Positions 821 through 40,809 of a DNA stretch of 47,119 bases are shown piece after piece. Numbering within the stretch: the first letter of the stretch is position 1; every line of letters starts with the position of its first letter. The stretch lies in contig SKOZ01000008.1 in assembly GCA_007119795.1 (NCBI GenBank), positions 1 to 47,119 of the forward strand, in the 5' to 3' direction. The position numbers and the translations under genes were made by a program. The notes under the pieces were generated by a model. That model made no database searches, was not told the origin of the DNA, and saw only the letters and a list, made by a program, of their open reading frames with translations. This DNA is from Planctomycetales bacterium (GTDB lineage Bacteria; Planctomycetota; Planctomycetia; Pirellulales; Thermoguttaceae).

Positions 821-2131
821 TTACGGGGGCGGCACGAGGCGGGCGCGGACCGCCGGCTGCTCCGGGTCGTCGCCGGGGTGGACGTGGGCCACGGAGACCC
901 AACCGGCGCGCTCCAGCACTTCGTAGGCCGCTCCGGTCAAGGGGTTCACCCGGTAGGGAGGGGCTTCCGCACCGCGGGCGCGCGCCAGGGCCAGGGCCCA
1001 GGCCTCGCAGAGGGCCCGGTCCGCCGCCAGGAGGCCGTGAGCCCGTTCCAGATCGGCCAAGAGCATCTCCCCGGCCACCAGGGGGTATTCGGTGGTCGTC
1101 TCCGTACCCGCCAATTCGTCCCGTATTTCGGCAAAGACTCTTCTCCGCTGGTAAAAGGGACGCGCAGAAGCATCGACGATACGCCGCATGGCCCTCAGAT
1201 AGAAGAGTTGGTCGGCGTCCACGCGCTCGCGGGTGAAGGTCGCCAGGTCGGTGAGGAGCCCCGCGGCGCCAAGGCGTTCCCGCTCGCGATCCGTGAGCAG
1301 ATCGGCGGCGTGTCCCGCGCGGACCAGTTCGTAGAGAAACAGCCCTTCGGCGCGGTCGCCGATCGTGGCCTCGGCGTCGCTGGGCCATTGGCCGAGCTGA
1401 TCGTCGACGACATTCGCCAGCCGCGTCATCCGTTGCGGAGTGACCTGCTCCTCCACGGCGAGGGCGCCGAGGAGGGCAAAGGCCTCTGCGCGAAGCTGCC
1501 CTGCCTGGAGGCGGGAGACGAGATGCCGCTCGGCGCCCAGGTGTGTGGCCAGGCGGAACATGACCGCGAGCGACTCCGCGGCTGCGTCGGCGTCGCCTTC
1601 CGCCAGAGCCTCGGCGGCCAGAAAGGCCTCCAGTCGGCCCACGATGCGGAAGACGTCGATGATGGCCAGGCTGGCGGCGGGTCCTTCGAGATGCGCGAGG
1701 GAGAGGCGGCAATGGGGCCGGCGGAGGGCCTCGCGGGCCGCGGCGCGCTGCGGCTCGTGGACGGTGCGGAAGGCCACGGCGAGGCCCAACCGCTGCGCGT
1801 CGAAGACGAAGCCTGCCTCAGGAAAAAGCCTCCGCGAACGATCGAGGAGGTCGGCAATCTGGTTCGGCGGGAAGAGCGACTCCAGCGCGGCGGCAACGTT
1901 GTCTTCCGGATCGACCTCCACCGCGGCGAGCTGTTCGGGAGTTCCCCCCTCGTCGACGACGCGCGCCAGCTCGTCCTGAAGGGGCTCCAGCGGGGACTGC
2001 CGCAGCCCCGGCAGGCGACCGAAGTGCTCGGCGACGTTCTCGGCCGGAGGGGGCTCCTTTCCGCAACCGACGAGGCTCGCGAGGGCAACCACGAACAACC
2101 ACCCCTCCCACCGCCGCAATGCCGCGTGCAT
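821..2131 (-). CDS. Lipoprotein of unknown function, about 436 aa
   Basis: The start is set by a strong ribosome site (AAGGAGGA) a few bases upstream of ATG at 2131. The N-terminus has a positively charged head, a hydrophobic stretch (WLFVVALASL) and a lipobox LVGC, so Cys23 should be lipidated and the protein anchored in a membrane. The rest is mostly alpha-helical and rich in Ala, Leu, Glu and Arg, with no motif that I recognise. The C-terminus (PYRVNPLTGAAYEV) resembles the ends of planctomycete lipoproteins that carry a short beta hairpin. The downstream end lies close to the DUF1080 gene in convergent orientation. Function is unknown; a structural or envelope role is only a guess from the lipobox. 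Confidence 0.7.
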   Translation of the reverse strand: MHAALRRWEGWLFVVALASLVGCGKEPPPAENVAEHFGRLPGLRQSPLEPLQDELARVVDEGGTPEQLAAVEVDPEDNVAAALESLFPPNQIADLLDRSRRLFPEAGFVFDAQRLGLAVAFRTVHEPQRAAAREALRRPHCRLSLAHLEGPAASLAIIDVFRIVGRLEAFLAAEALAEGDADAAAESLAVMFRLATHLGAERHLVSRLQAGQLRAEAFALLGALAVEEQVTPQRMTRLANVVDDQLGQWPSDAEATIGDRAEGLFLYELVRAGHAADLLTDRERERLGAAGLLTDLATFTRERVDADQLFYLRAMRRIVDASARPFYQRRRVFAEIRDELAGTETTTEYPLVAGEMLLADLERAHGLLAADRALCEAWALALARARGAEAPPYRVNPLTGAAYEVLERAGWVSVAHVHPGDDPEQPAVRARLVPPP

Positions 2132-2175
2132 GATTCCTCCTTCCCGGCGCCGAGGGCAGCGGATACCGCCGCCCC

Positions 2176-2769
2176 CTAGCGGCGGACGCTCTTGCGTCGC
2201 CGGCGGCCGGCCGCACCGTTGTCGGAGCGATCGCCGCCGGGGACGAGCCACGGCAGGGGCCGCAGCGCCACCATTTCGGCCAGCCCGGCCTCGGCGAGCT
2301 CCGGCCCGGCCACATACCGCCCTGGGGTGCTCCAGTTGCGGATGCGTTCCACCGGGGCCCCGAAGAGCTCGGCCAGCAGGCAGTCCATATCCGCCTCCAG
2401 GCGGCCGAAGTGGCGGGCCCACTCGGCGGCCTCGGCGAGGCCCACGTTCTCTTCGCTCTGCCATTTCATCGGATGGAAGAGGAGGACGCTGTAGGGCGTC
2501 ACCAGGCGGCGGCGGCAGGCGGCGAAAGGCCAGAGGGCGGCCGACGAGCATTCGCCGGTGACGATACCCGTCGCCCGCAGCCCGCGGAGGAGGATCAGCG
2601 AGGTCAAGGACATCGCCGCGTAGGCGCCGCCGCCCACGGAGTCGATGTACAGGATGCACTCGCCGCCCGGCTCGACGCCCAAGACATGCGAAAAGAGATC
2701 GGCCTCGTTCTCGTTGAGGTCGCCCACCAGCGCGATCTCGGCCAGGCCCCCAAGATTTCCATCGTCCAC
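2176..2769 (-). CDS. ClpP/crotonase-fold protease-like protein
   Basis: About 197 residues, the usual size of ClpP. The start is GTG at 2769 with GGAG about eight bases upstream; no better in-frame start exists. Family signs: a beta-alpha unit with ILYIDSVGGGAYAAMSL (ClpP has INSPGG), a nucleophile turn GECSSAALW (Ser75/76) and LLFHPMKW supplying His99 where ClpP has HQP. The C-terminal segment YVAGPELAEAGLAEMV matches the ClpP region FLSAEEAxEYGLID, but the Asp that completes the ClpP triad appears replaced (Gly149 by my alignment). The tail is basic (GRRRRKSVRR). It lies 44 bases upstream of the lipoprotein gene in the same direction, so co-transcription is likely. It may be a ClpP paralogue with altered or lost peptidase activity. 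Confidence 0.7.
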   Translation of the reverse strand: MDDGNLGGLAEIALVGDLNENEADLFSHVLGVEPGGECILYIDSVGGGAYAAMSLTSLILLRGLRATGIVTGECSSAALWPFAACRRRLVTPYSVLLFHPMKWQSEENVGLAEAAEWARHFGRLEADMDCLLAELFGAPVERIRNWSTPGRYVAGPELAEAGLAEMVALRPLPWLVPGGDRSDNGAAGRRRRKSVRR

Positions 2770-2918
2770 AAGAAGGCTCCATACAGAGGTAAGGAACTTC
2801 CGTGCCCGCCTCGTCCCCCGACTCGAACTGCCCGGCGAGGCTCCGTCCTGCCGCGGGGCATCCGCTACCTTCTTAGCTCAAGCCTGCGGGTAAAGCAAGC
2901 GTCGGCTGCCGCCGCCGG

Positions 2919-2952
2919 AAAAAAGCAACGGGCCGCACTTGCGCGCGGCCCG
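2919..2952 (-). terminator. Rho-independent terminator after the ferredoxin gene
   Basis: On the minus strand a GC-rich stem (CGGGCCGC pairing with GCGGCCCG, 2930-2952) is followed within a few bases by six T. It lies about 55 bases past the ferredoxin stop codon, so the ferredoxin is probably transcribed alone. Confidence 0.7.
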
Positions 2953-3006
2953 GGGGGGTGAGTCGATCGGCGTGCAGCCGTGCGACCGGGTCAAGCGCCC
3001 GATGCA

Positions 3007-3180
3007 CTACTCGATGGTGATGGCCTCGCTGGGGCAGGCGTCGACGCAGGCGCCGCAGTCGCCGCAGGTCTCCTCGTCGATGACGGCCTTGCCGTCCTTC
3101 AACTCGATGGCATCCAGCGGACAGGACTCCACGCAGTCGCCGCAGGCATTGCACTTTTCGACATCCACGATCGTTGGCAT
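3007..3180 (-). CDS. 2[4Fe-4S] ferredoxin, 57 aa
   Basis: A short gene running from ATG at 3180 to TAG at 3007, with GGGAG upstream as ribosome site. The protein contains two complete bacterial ferredoxin cluster motifs, CNACGDCVESCP (residues 10-21) and CGDCGACVDACP (residues 39-50). Each supplies three Cys for one [4Fe-4S] cluster and one for the other. The pseudo-twofold halves end in LDAIEL and SEAITIE as in clostridial-type ferredoxins. The protein is acidic and lacks a signal peptide, so it is a cytoplasmic low-potential electron carrier. Its redox partner is not encoded nearby. A terminator follows at 2919-2952, which supports a monocistronic unit. Confidence 0.95.
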   Translation of the reverse strand: MPTIVDVEKCNACGDCVESCPLDAIELKDGKAVIDEETCGDCGACVDACPSEAITIE

Positions 3181-3580
3181 TGGCACTCTCCCGTAAGGCG
3201 GCCCGGTGGGCCGAGACGAACAATGAGCAAAGACACCACACCCCCACGGGATGCGATGATCCGATCGGCGAAAAGAGCGGTGGCTCGCTCCCCACGCACC
3301 AGGCGGGCCGGGCCGAAAGAAGTTCTCCCACGGCGAGCCCCGCGACCGACCCGCCTCCTTTTATCTTTATACCGCGGCGGCCCTCCCCCAGGCTATACCC
3401 CGAAACAAGCCGGCCCTTCACCCAAATGTGGGTAAGCGGCAAGCATAACTTCCGCCGGCGGGGCCCGCAAGGCCGACGGCGCAGCGGCTCCAGGCGGAGA
3501 AGCCCGCCCGCCGCGCCGTTCTCGCCTCCGACCAGCCGCGATCGGGTTTAGGCCGTTGGAGGCGGCTGCGAAAAACTGCG
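3181..3580. other. Gene-free stretch upstream of the ferredoxin
   Basis: No credible coding sequence on either strand. An AT-rich block at 3359-3371 reads TATAAAGATAAAA on the minus strand, about 180 bases before the ferredoxin start. It could contribute to a promoter, but I see no good -35 partner. Confidence 0.5.
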
Positions 3581-38540: not shown

Positions 38541-40106
38541 TCACGGATTGGGCGCCACCGGGGCGTCGGCCGGTGCGCGGTGGTTGGCCACGATGCGGTT
38601 GACGGCGCTGAGGAAGGCCTTGGCGCTGGCCTCCAGGCTGTCGGTGGAGACGCCGCGGCCCCGGTAGAGGCGGTTCTCGTACTCGACCTCGACGCGGACC
38701 TCTCCCTGGGCGTCCTGCCCCACGGTGACGCTGTGGACCTGGAAGTCGCGGCAGTGGACGTTCATGCCCGTCAGCTCTTTGATCGCCAGGAAGACGGCGT
38801 CCACGGGCCCGTCGCCGCAGGCCATCCGCGTGCTGTGGGGTTCCTCCCCGTGGCGGAGGGTGAGGCTCACCTCGGGCTTGCACCCGGTGCCGCAGCTCAC
38901 GGAGTAGTCTTCCAGCGTCCAGAGCTCGGGAACGGCGAGAATCTCCTGCTCGATGAGCGCCGCCAGGTCGCCGTCGTAGATCTCCTTCTTCTTGTCGGCC
39001 AGCTCCTTGAAGGCCTCGAAGACGGCGTGGAGCTGCTCGCCGGTGAGGTGGTAGCCTAGCTGGCGCGCGCGGTCGGCCAGCGCCGCCCGCCCGCTGTGCT
39101 TGCCCAGGACCAGGTCCGTCTTCGCGAAGCCCACGTCTTCCGGCCGCATGATCTCGTAGGTGGTCCGCTCCTTGAGGATGCCGTCCTGGTGAATGCCCGC
39201 CTCGTGGGCGAAGGCGTTCTGCCCCACGATGGCCTTGTTCCGCTGCACCTGGATGCCGGTGACGGCCGCCACCAGCCGGCTCGCGGGGACCAGCCGCTGG
39301 GTGACCACCCCGGTCTCCGCCCCGTAGACGTCCTGCCGGGTCCGCAGGGCCATAACGACCTCTTCCAGCGAACAATTTCCGGCCCGCTCACCGATGCCGT
39401 TGATCGTGCACTCGATCTGGCCGGCGCCGGCCTCCACGGCGGCCAGGCTGTTGGCCACGGCCAGTCCCAGGTCGTTATGGCAGTGGACGCTGATCACCGC
39501 CCGGTCGATGCTGGGCACCCGCTCGCGGAGGGTGCGTATCACCTGGGAAAAATGCGCCGGCGTGGCATAGCCGACCGTGTCCGGGATGTTCACCGTGGTG
39601 GCCCCCGCCTCGATGGCCGCCTCGACGACCCTGCACAGAAAGTCGATTTCGGTGCGGGCCGCGTCTTCCGGGGAGAACTCGACGTCCGTGCAATAGCCGG
39701 CCGCCCGCCGCACCCCCTCGGCCGCGCGGGCGATGATCTGCTCCTTGGTCATCCGCAGCTTGTGCTCGCGGTGGATGGCGCTGGTCGCCAGGAAGACGTG
39801 GATCCGCGGCCGCGGGGAGAGCTTCACCGCCTCCCAGGCGCGGTCGATGTCGGCCTCGCGGCAGCGCGCCAGCCCGCAGACCGCCGGCCCGCGGACGGCG
39901 CGGGCCACCTCGCGAACGGCCTCGAAGTCGCCCGCCGAGGCAATGGGAAAGCCGGCCTCAATGACGTCGACGCCGAGTTCGGCCAGCGTCTGGGCGACCT
40001 CGAGCTTCTCGGCCAGGTTCATGCTTGCGCCCGGCGACTGCTCGCCGTCGCGGAGCGTGGTATCGAAGATAACGATGCGGCGGTGGGTGGTCTGTGACTG
40101 AGGCAT
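38541..40106 (-). CDS. leuA: 2-isopropylmalate synthase
   Basis: 521 residues from ATG at 40106. The catalytic barrel has IFDTTLRDGEQSPGASM, LGVDVIEAGFPIAS, IHVFLATSAIH, SPEDAARTEIDFL, TVNIPDTVGYATP and VHCHNDLGLAVANSLAAVEAGA (metal-binding HxH). The linker FAHEAGIHQDG and the C-terminal regulatory domain (about residues 390-505, VTVGQDAQGEVRVEVEYENR) that binds leucine are present. It condenses acetyl-CoA with 2-oxoisovalerate, the first committed step of leucine synthesis. It stands alone; leuB, leuC and leuD are not adjacent. A leucine-rich leader peptide and a terminator lie upstream on the same strand, so regulation by transcription attenuation is strongly suggested on top of enzyme feedback inhibition. 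Confidence 0.97.
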   Translation of the reverse strand: MPQSQTTHRRIVIFDTTLRDGEQSPGASMNLAEKLEVAQTLAELGVDVIEAGFPIASAGDFEAVREVARAVRGPAVCGLARCREADIDRAWEAVKLSPRPRIHVFLATSAIHREHKLRMTKEQIIARAAEGVRRAAGYCTDVEFSPEDAARTEIDFLCRVVEAAIEAGATTVNIPDTVGYATPAHFSQVIRTLRERVPSIDRAVISVHCHNDLGLAVANSLAAVEAGAGQIECTINGIGERAGNCSLEEVVMALRTRQDVYGAETGVVTQRLVPASRLVAAVTGIQVQRNKAIVGQNAFAHEAGIHQDGILKERTTYEIMRPEDVGFAKTDLVLGKHSGRAALADRARQLGYHLTGEQLHAVFEAFKELADKKKEIYDGDLAALIEQEILAVPELWTLEDYSVSCGTGCKPEVSLTLRHGEEPHSTRMACGDGPVDAVFLAIKELTGMNVHCRDFQVHSVTVGQDAQGEVRVEVEYENRLYRGRGVSTDSLEASAKAFLSAVNRIVANHRAPADAPVAPNP

Positions 40107-40388
40107 GGCAACGATTCCCAAGTCGAATGAGTGATCGCCAAAAAACAAAACAAAACGGCCGGGAGAACTTCCGCTAGACGGCATGCCGACCCCTGGTCGG
40201 CGGGGGAAGCACCAGCCATGCCCGACCTGGCGACTGCCGCCACTTTGTCCTCTGCACGTCGTTCACTCGACTCCGCCTTACCCAACCAAGCTGAGTATAA
40301 CCCTATGGGGCCAAAAGTATCCCCAATTGGCCTACCACGCAATGCCGAGATTGCCCCCAAATCGAGGTAGGCCACCACTTCACGGCAC
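40107..40388. other. Long untranslated leader between the attenuator and leuA
   Basis: About 280 bases of transcribed leader on the minus strand, with no good ribosome site other than the weak one before leuA and no coding sequence that I trust. It is long for a classical attenuator and might hold further structure. Confidence 0.4.
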
Positions 40389-40422
40389 AAAAAAACCCCG
40401 GGACCGCTGCCGGCCCTGGGGT
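40389..40422 (-). terminator. Attenuator terminator of the leuA leader
   Basis: On the minus strand the RNA reads ACCCCAGGGCCG, loop GCAG, then CGGTCCCGGGGT followed by seven U (40389-40395). Eleven of twelve stem positions pair, including one G-U. It lies about 50 bases after the stop codon of the leucine-rich leader peptide and 282 bases before leuA. Its 5' arm can alternatively pair with the segment 40468-40481, which overlaps the end of the leader peptide. Confidence 0.85.
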
Positions 40423-40467
40423 CCGTTGTCTTCTGGTATCGTCTCGCGTGCGACGGAAGGCGTGCGA

Positions 40468-40481
40468 ACCCTAGGACCGGC
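40468..40481 (-). promoter_or_regulatory. Antiterminator half-site overlapping the leader-peptide stop
   Basis: On the minus strand GCCGGTCCTAGGGT (40468-40481) can pair with ACCCCAGGGCCGGC (40409-40422), the 5' arm of the terminator: 13 of 14 positions, one of them G-U. It covers the last codons and the TAG of the leader peptide. A ribosome reaching the stop would mask it, while one stalled on the leucine codons upstream would leave it free to block the terminator. Confidence 0.7.
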
Positions 40482-40563
40482 GGGCGGCCAGCACCCATAA
40501 GAGCAGGCTGAGGTTCGCGCGGACCATCGCAGCGGGTATCCGTGAAAGGAGCCAGAACACCAT
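40471..40563 (-). CDS. Leucine-rich leader peptide of leuA (30 codons, or 18 from an internal ATG)
   Basis: Two in-frame starts are possible: ATG at 40563 (30 residues, with AGGTGGG close in front) and ATG at 40527 (18 residues, weak site). Both end at TAG 40471. The C-terminal half reads NLSLLLWVLAARRS and contains five leucines, three in a row; the long form has seven leucines in 30 residues. The leucine codons are CTC, CTG, CTC, TTA and CTG. The peptide ends about 50 bases before a strong terminator, and the complementary segment at 40468-40481 overlaps its end. This is the layout of leader peptides that sense charged tRNA-Leu by ribosome stalling. Confidence 0.75.
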   Translation of the reverse strand: MVFWLLSRIPAAMVRANLSLLLWVLAARRS

Positions 40564-40608
40564 CCCACCTGACGGCGTGTGCAACAGCCTCGGGTGGGTA
40601 ATGCTAGA

Positions 40609-40637
40609 AGATTACGGGGCAGGCATGGGTTGGTCAA
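40609..40637 (-). promoter_or_regulatory. Probable promoter of the leuA leader
   Basis: On the minus strand TTGACC (40632-40637), a 17-base spacer and TAATCT (40609-40614). The -35 box is good and the -10 box weak. Transcription would start near 40601, about 40 bases before the leader peptide's first ATG. Confidence 0.5.
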
Positions 40638-40780
40638 GTCCGGGGCCGAACGAAATCCTTGCCTCCGGCAATCCCCTTCCCCTGCAATCCGTGTTTCCGG
40701 CCGTTCCTGTCCCCCTTCCCAACAGCCCTCGTGGCCGGTCTAAAGCGTCTTACAGGGCGCTGCAGCGTCAAAGCATTCCC

Positions 40781-40809
40781 TTGACACTCCACGCCCTCGC
40801 CGGTATGTT
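40781..40809 (+). promoter_or_regulatory. Strong promoter for the nusA-infB-rbfA operon
   Basis: A perfect TTGACA (40781-40786), a 17-base spacer and TATGTT (40804-40809) on the plus strand. The predicted transcript has a leader of about 215 bases before nusA at 41030. It diverges from the leuA leader promoter. Confidence 0.75.

Follow-up and report, generated by a model that had tools for sequence, protein, structure and literature searches.

A probable leucine attenuator upstream of leuA in Planctomycetota

In the enteric leu leader, the rare Leu codon is CUA. PMC1183508 names this leader as the paradigm of rare Leu codon choice but warns that invoking rarity alone oversimplifies the matter. 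For Actinobacteria, the relevant section of PMC1262725 describes upstream of leuA a LEU element, a pseudoknot in whose base stem the Leu codons are paired with the Shine-Dalgarno sequence of leuA, and judges classical attenuation to be unlikely for it. The initial annotation of the locus described here supposed that no case was known for planctomycete leuA; likewise, no leucine attenuator described for the phylum was found in the open-licence literature searched, although a 2010 attenuator survey (as cited in PMC4833913) may mention one.

The locus lies in the window, which is the whole 47,119-nucleotide stretch of DNA that was analyzed (contig SKOZ01000008.1 of a Planctomycetales bacterium). 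There, leuA is divergent from nusA and infB, and the following features, all on the minus strand, are given in the order of transcription.

40609..40637, minus strand: promoter-like TTGACC-17-TAATCT, read from the sequence
40561..40570, minus strand: candidate Shine-Dalgarno AGGTGGG and the ATG of the leader frame
40471..40563, minus strand: leader frame of 30 codons, 7 of them Leu (ATG at 40563, TAG at 40473-40471)
40489..40512, minus strand: Leu control cluster, L S L L L W V L, at codons -13 to -6 counted from the stop and with a single TTA
40465..40481, minus strand: segment 2, the upstream strand of the antiterminator, overlapping the peptide stop codon
40409..40425, minus strand: segment 3, the terminator 5' arm and partner of segment 2
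40389..40424, minus strand: intrinsic terminator, hairpin (40424-40393) and seven U (seven T, 40395-40389)
40180..40223, minus strand: second conserved element in the gap, with the hairpin GCCGACC-AGG-GGTCGGC at 40201-40185
38541..40106, minus strand: leuA, 2-isopropylmalate synthase (TIGR00973, 724.2 bits versus a cut-off of 598.7)

This arrangement is very probably a ribosome-mediated transcription attenuator of the classical leucine type that senses leucyl-tRNA. Transcription would start near 40602, judging from the promoter match, and a ribosome would begin the leader frame behind the polymerase. When charged tRNA-Leu is scarce, the ribosome would stall in the Leu cluster and leave segment 2 free to pair with segment 3 ahead of the synthesis of segment 4; the terminator would then not form, and leuA would be transcribed. 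When leucine is plentiful, the RNA switch would shut leuA off. Computation here gave the parts and the extent to which they are conserved, the alternative pairing, the bias in codon choice, and the predicted switch. Leader translation, stalling, termination, and leucine control are the four steps that we infer.

The promoter is the weakest part of the system. The sequence proposed as a promoter is present at 40609-40637, but it is weak, matching 8 of 12 consensus bases, and is absent from the output of a consensus promoter scan. The best promoter-like score in the 150 nt before 87 leaders has a mean of 8.07, versus 6.26 for shuffles, at varying distances. On the divergent nusA side, a good promoter match (TTGACA-17-TATGTT) is found at 40781-40809 on the plus strand. 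The short Leu-rich frame that had been reported to end at 40471 is present and encodes the peptide MVFWLLSRIPAAMVRANLSLLLWVLAARRS. In the MFE fold, GGTGGG of its candidate Shine-Dalgarno sequence pairs with CCCACC farther upstream (40604-40557, minus strand), a predicted pairing that may limit leader translation. The terminator with seven U, annotated earlier at 40389-40422, was also recovered, and its hairpin is present in the MFE fold of 40606-40389 (z = -3.0, equalled by 1 of 200 shuffles). Screening both strands of the whole window for a Leu-rich frame followed by a terminator returned two places, compared with none in 15 shuffled windows. The second place is the in-frame end of a 542-amino-acid frame (5341-3713), presumably resembling GroEL, and was rejected as a false match.

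Leader and terminator are conserved among relatives. Of 198 genomes searched across the class, 187 have leuA at E <= 1e-150; 148 of 188 leuA matches were taken, with the 38 least similar left out, and 147 upstreams were distinct as judged by their last 300 bases. The screen required a Leu-rich short frame, its stop, and then a GC hairpin with a U run, the frame ending 5-130 nt before the hairpin. Conservation of the Leu codons had been set as a check on the proposal, and 86 of the 147 upstreams pass this screen, compared with 0 to 1 per set in 10 sets of shuffled upstreams and with none on the opposite strand. At the same threshold, other residues gave 6 upstreams for Ser, 6 for Gly, 5 for Arg, 2 each for Val and Thr, and none for Ala, Ile, or Pro. 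Of the 61 that fail, 40 have a Leu leader (0 to 6 in shuffles), and 33 combine the leader with a strong hairpin and a poor U run (0 of 61 in each of four shuffled runs). Leader only was assigned to 7 and no leader to 21 of the 147 by a screen that can miss, since in L086, scored as leader only, a GC-rich inverted repeat stands before six T by eye.

The 33 upstreams with a poor U run would also fit control exerted on leuA translation or via a protein, with a hairpin that is no terminator, and the actinobacterial leuA leader has been so interpreted (PMC1262725, in the section on the LEU element). However, the U run is clear in 86 of 147 upstreams, and in the window the U run ends 282 nt upstream of leuA, well away from the site at which ribosomes would bind, which makes this reading highly improbable.

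Transcription attenuation at leuA may have a long history. Among named genome contigs, represented by the best 80 leuA loci from one scan, leader and hairpin occur in 22 of 36 loci from Planctomycetota (19 of these with a U run), and four of the 36 (L001, L022, L024, and L039) share their upstreams with the class set; among the others, 2 of 44 loci pass the screen, 7 of the 44 having no phylum in the record. Cultured planctomycetes that pass it include Stieleria tagensis (L020) and Thalassoglobus neptunius (L033). A phylum-level draw found leuA at E <= 1e-100 in 48 of 149 genomes. The 40 loci taken comprise 9 with leader and terminator, 1 with leader and hairpin, 10 with leader only, and 20 with none, and at least 4 of the 40 genomes (G012, G028, G031, and G035) belong to the same class. 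Two loci (L267 and L268) have leader and terminator before a leuA only 48-49% identical to that of the window, and thus the arrangement is possibly older than the class or was separately gained. On a FastTree phylogeny of 223 leuA proteins, in which 60 forks are open, the leader-with-hairpin trait needs 29 changes. We read it as old in the class and repeatedly lost, for example in the Planctomicrobium (L012) group, where 6 of 6 rows are without it by the screen. The other biosynthetic genes examined were ilvB, trpE, and leuC only; in the class, 30 ilvB genes (of 39 matches) and 26 leuC genes showed no such leader upstream, and 30 trpE genes showed no Trp leader. Phe and Ser matches at one hairpin before one trpE (L318) were taken as chance.

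A mutually exclusive antiterminator formed by segments 2 and 3 is supported by comparison with shuffles, by a register test, and by a swap test on the sequences, and the column-wise count is negative. In the window, the reported pairing of 13 of 14 positions at 40468-40481 is correct and extends to 16 of 17 (40481-40465 with 40425-40409, with one A.C mismatch); this duplex has -32.4 kcal/mol (z = -3.9), and 0 of 60 shuffles are as good. The tests across relatives cover 87 leaders, namely, the window and the 86 upstreams passing the screen, with the 33 poor-U-run leaders left out. The best duplex between the segment before the hairpin and the 5' arm has a mean z of -2.47 (median, -2.57) and falls below -1.5 in 65 of the 87, and it overlaps the stop codon in 66. 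The register test used anchors chosen independently of the pairing, the stop codon and the first CCC of the hairpin (n = 86; L212, which is without the CCC anchor, was left out). Of 15 registers, a single one reaches z = 6.6, its neighbors reach 3.0 and 2.6, and the other twelve stay at or below 2.2. By position, the observed value is reached by 0 of 500 shuffles at -7 to -4, by 1 at -2, by 7 at -8, and by 13 at +7, and the remaining ten positions are reached by at least 35 of 500. There is no excess at positions -9, -3, -1, and most of +1 to +6; for several of the ten, the reason is their low variability.

Because relatedness inflates the register-test numbers, the swap test was made on 43 tree-disjoint pairs; the leader's own partner pairs better in 22 of 29 informative cases (P = 0.0008). 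None of 86 foreign arms binds segment 2 of the window as well as its own arm does, the median across all leaders being 15%. Column-wise double changes in the 43 independent pairs number 19, versus a permuted mean of 19.2 (289 of 500 permutations are as high), and neighboring registers give 21 and 21. That count may suffer from indels and from registers that differ between clades. Of the two outcomes named in advance as refuting the proposal, the one concerning relatives, in which the Leu codons or the alternative pairings would lack conservation, did not occur, although the column-wise count speaks the other way.

Neither of two tests supports a pause helix between segments 1 and 2 as a general rule: among the 87 leaders the median duplex z is -0.64, with 20 below -1.5, and the swap test gives 22 of 33 (P = 0.14). 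In 19 of the 87 leaders, the motif AACCT, within Asn-Leu codons, has its first base at precisely -42 from the stop, perhaps reflecting a constraint from this pairing in a subset.

The alternative terminator and antiterminator pairing is also used by T-box and metabolite riboswitch classes, and either of these with a fortuitous leader frame would share this property of the locus. The chance of this is close to negligible, given that only a tRNA reaches the Rfam gathering threshold in the whole window, that the best Rfam match in 40080-40650 is subthreshold (E = 0.18) and on the opposite strand, with no leader family matched, and that the Leu codons are conserved.

The codons of the leader further point to a role in attenuation rather than in a peptide product. 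Among Leu codons, CUA has a share of 22.6% in the leaders (148 of 655) versus 1.4% in leuA (44 of 3,191), and with one member taken per pair (43 pairs), the leader is higher in 29, equal in 10, and lower in 4. The leader of the window has no CUA but one UUA, a codon that accounts for 1 of 233 Leu codons in five window frames. The density of Leu in the 87 leaders peaks at codons -15 to -6 and falls at -5, close to the beginning of segment 2. An ordinary terminator behind a functional, small Leu-rich membrane peptide, with no alternative RNA fold, is very unlikely in light of this fall, of the enrichment of rare Leu codons, and of a peptide that by eye shows no conservation outside the Leu run; furthermore, segment 2 fits its own hairpin arm in the register and swap tests, and the frame was seen ahead of leuA, with none upstream of the ilvB, trpE, and leuC genes examined. 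What speaks for such a peptide is that ordinary proteins also yield short Leu-rich frames before terminators, as the end of the 542-amino-acid frame of the window illustrates.

The attenuator reading was also followed in a folding model in which ribosome footprints were imposed on the leader RNA. For the window, the modeled probability of the terminator is 0.71 for ribosome-free RNA, 0.97 when a ribosome sits at the stop, and 0.94 after shuffling. With the ribosome at Leu codons, it is 0.00 at four of five tested and 0.97 at the last. In this model, a ribosome at the control codons frees segment 2, and one at the stop covers it, in agreement with the earlier suggestion that stalling would free the antiterminator and that finishing the peptide would mask it. 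A switch of at least 0.5 at equilibrium is predicted in 14 of the 87 leaders and in 0 of the shuffles, and thus most leaders would depend on the order of folding. As long as the 3' arm has yet to be transcribed, the median extent to which upstream RNA holds the 5' arm is 0.76 for stalled ribosomes, 0.22 for ribosomes at the stop, and 0.51 after shuffling (87 leaders). The switch would then be mostly kinetic in the relatives and also thermodynamic in the window.

The distance between terminator and leuA is indeed 282 bases, with the leader stop ~365 nt from leuA, but this gap, initially described as unusual, is not so among close relatives, given gaps of 209 (L081), 290 (L084), 384 (L087), and 513 (L085) bases (94 in L082), and it contains a second conserved element. 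This ~45-nt element (40223-40180) is found in seven close relatives (L084, L085, L088, L089, L091, L093, and L002), and a covariance model adds L086 (E = 6e-8) and L003 (E = 1.6e-6); weaker matches, up to E = 1, occur before leuA in L087 and L094 and in places elsewhere. A search with this model in 14 genomes, scoring 150 of 1,045 to 3,440 first-look candidates per genome, gave 8 genomes whose match reaches E <= 6e-5 and lies before leuA in every case, and two further matches with E near 0.005 that are not before leuA. The hairpin of the element is 98.6% paired (9 of 500 shuffles are as high) and has two compensated pairs, both in one of 10 sequences (L003). An alternative pairing, GGUUGG:CCGACC, was rejected; it shows no covariation and is 86.7% paired, as high as in 432 of 500 shuffles. 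A coding reading was judged unlikely, by eye only, because the loop of one member has an extra base. The element matches no Rfam family. L088 carries it, and there the screen returned no attenuator over 900 nt. With the second element behind the attenuator in the sub-clade of the window, leuA would there be under tandem RNA control.

The leader is also retained in Gemmataceae. A leuA clade (support, 99) that includes the four named members of this family (L021, L023, L026, and L028) comprises 44 rows: 26 with leader and terminator, 15 with leader and hairpin, and 3 with neither. In a sub-clade of seven (L026, L201, L210, L215, L216, L220, and L223), the U run is poor, the hairpin follows 18-21 nt past the stop, and the segment of best complementarity starts inside the leader frame, at -36 to -32, with z from -0.3 to -1.9; the antiterminator of this sub-clade is thus a weakly supported candidate. 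Other Gemmataceae have z values of -3.6 (L200), -3.0 (L217), -2.4 (L021), -2.3 (L023), and -0.7 (L175) for the pairing of segments 2 and 3. Segregated transcription and translation has been reported for Gemmata obscuriglobus (Gottshall et al. 2014, as cited in PMC5394234 and PMC6857541), and a nucleus-like compartment in this species was still under debate in 2019, according to the passage in PMC6857541. Since an attenuator of this kind would work only with a ribosome within roughly 120 nt of the polymerase, the kept leader suggests, short of proof, that transcription and translation are coupled at leuA. An attenuator in a lineage with claimed segregation makes such coupling testable.

Overall, attenuation that is old in the class and kept in 41 of 44 rows of the clade holding the Gemmataceae, coupling at leuA, and tandem RNA control in the sub-clade of the window form a joint picture that we put forward tentatively, as one slightly more apt to fail in some part than to hold entirely. 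The attenuator itself would extend a textbook control mechanism to Planctomycetota and would offer a genetic handle on coupling in planctomycetes.

Compared with the actinobacterial LEU element, the planctomycete leader likewise has an upstream frame with a Leu run before leuA, but it also has a terminator and an antiterminator. Runs of branched-chain codons with a terminator hairpin and poly-U are a point in common with actinobacterial ilvB leaders (PMC1262725, in the part on these leaders), whereas the 30 ilvB genes examined in the class show no such leader. The enteric leu attenuator (leuL) differs in belonging to another phylum; the planctomycete leader is without an Rfam match and without a generally supported helix between segments 1 and 2, its antiterminator arm overlaps the stop codon in most leaders, and in the window no other leu gene adjoins leuA. 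What it has in common with leuL is a run of Leu codons, the use of rare Leu codons, an antiterminator of segments 2 and 3, a terminator of segments 3 and 4 with a U run, and a position of control before leuA.
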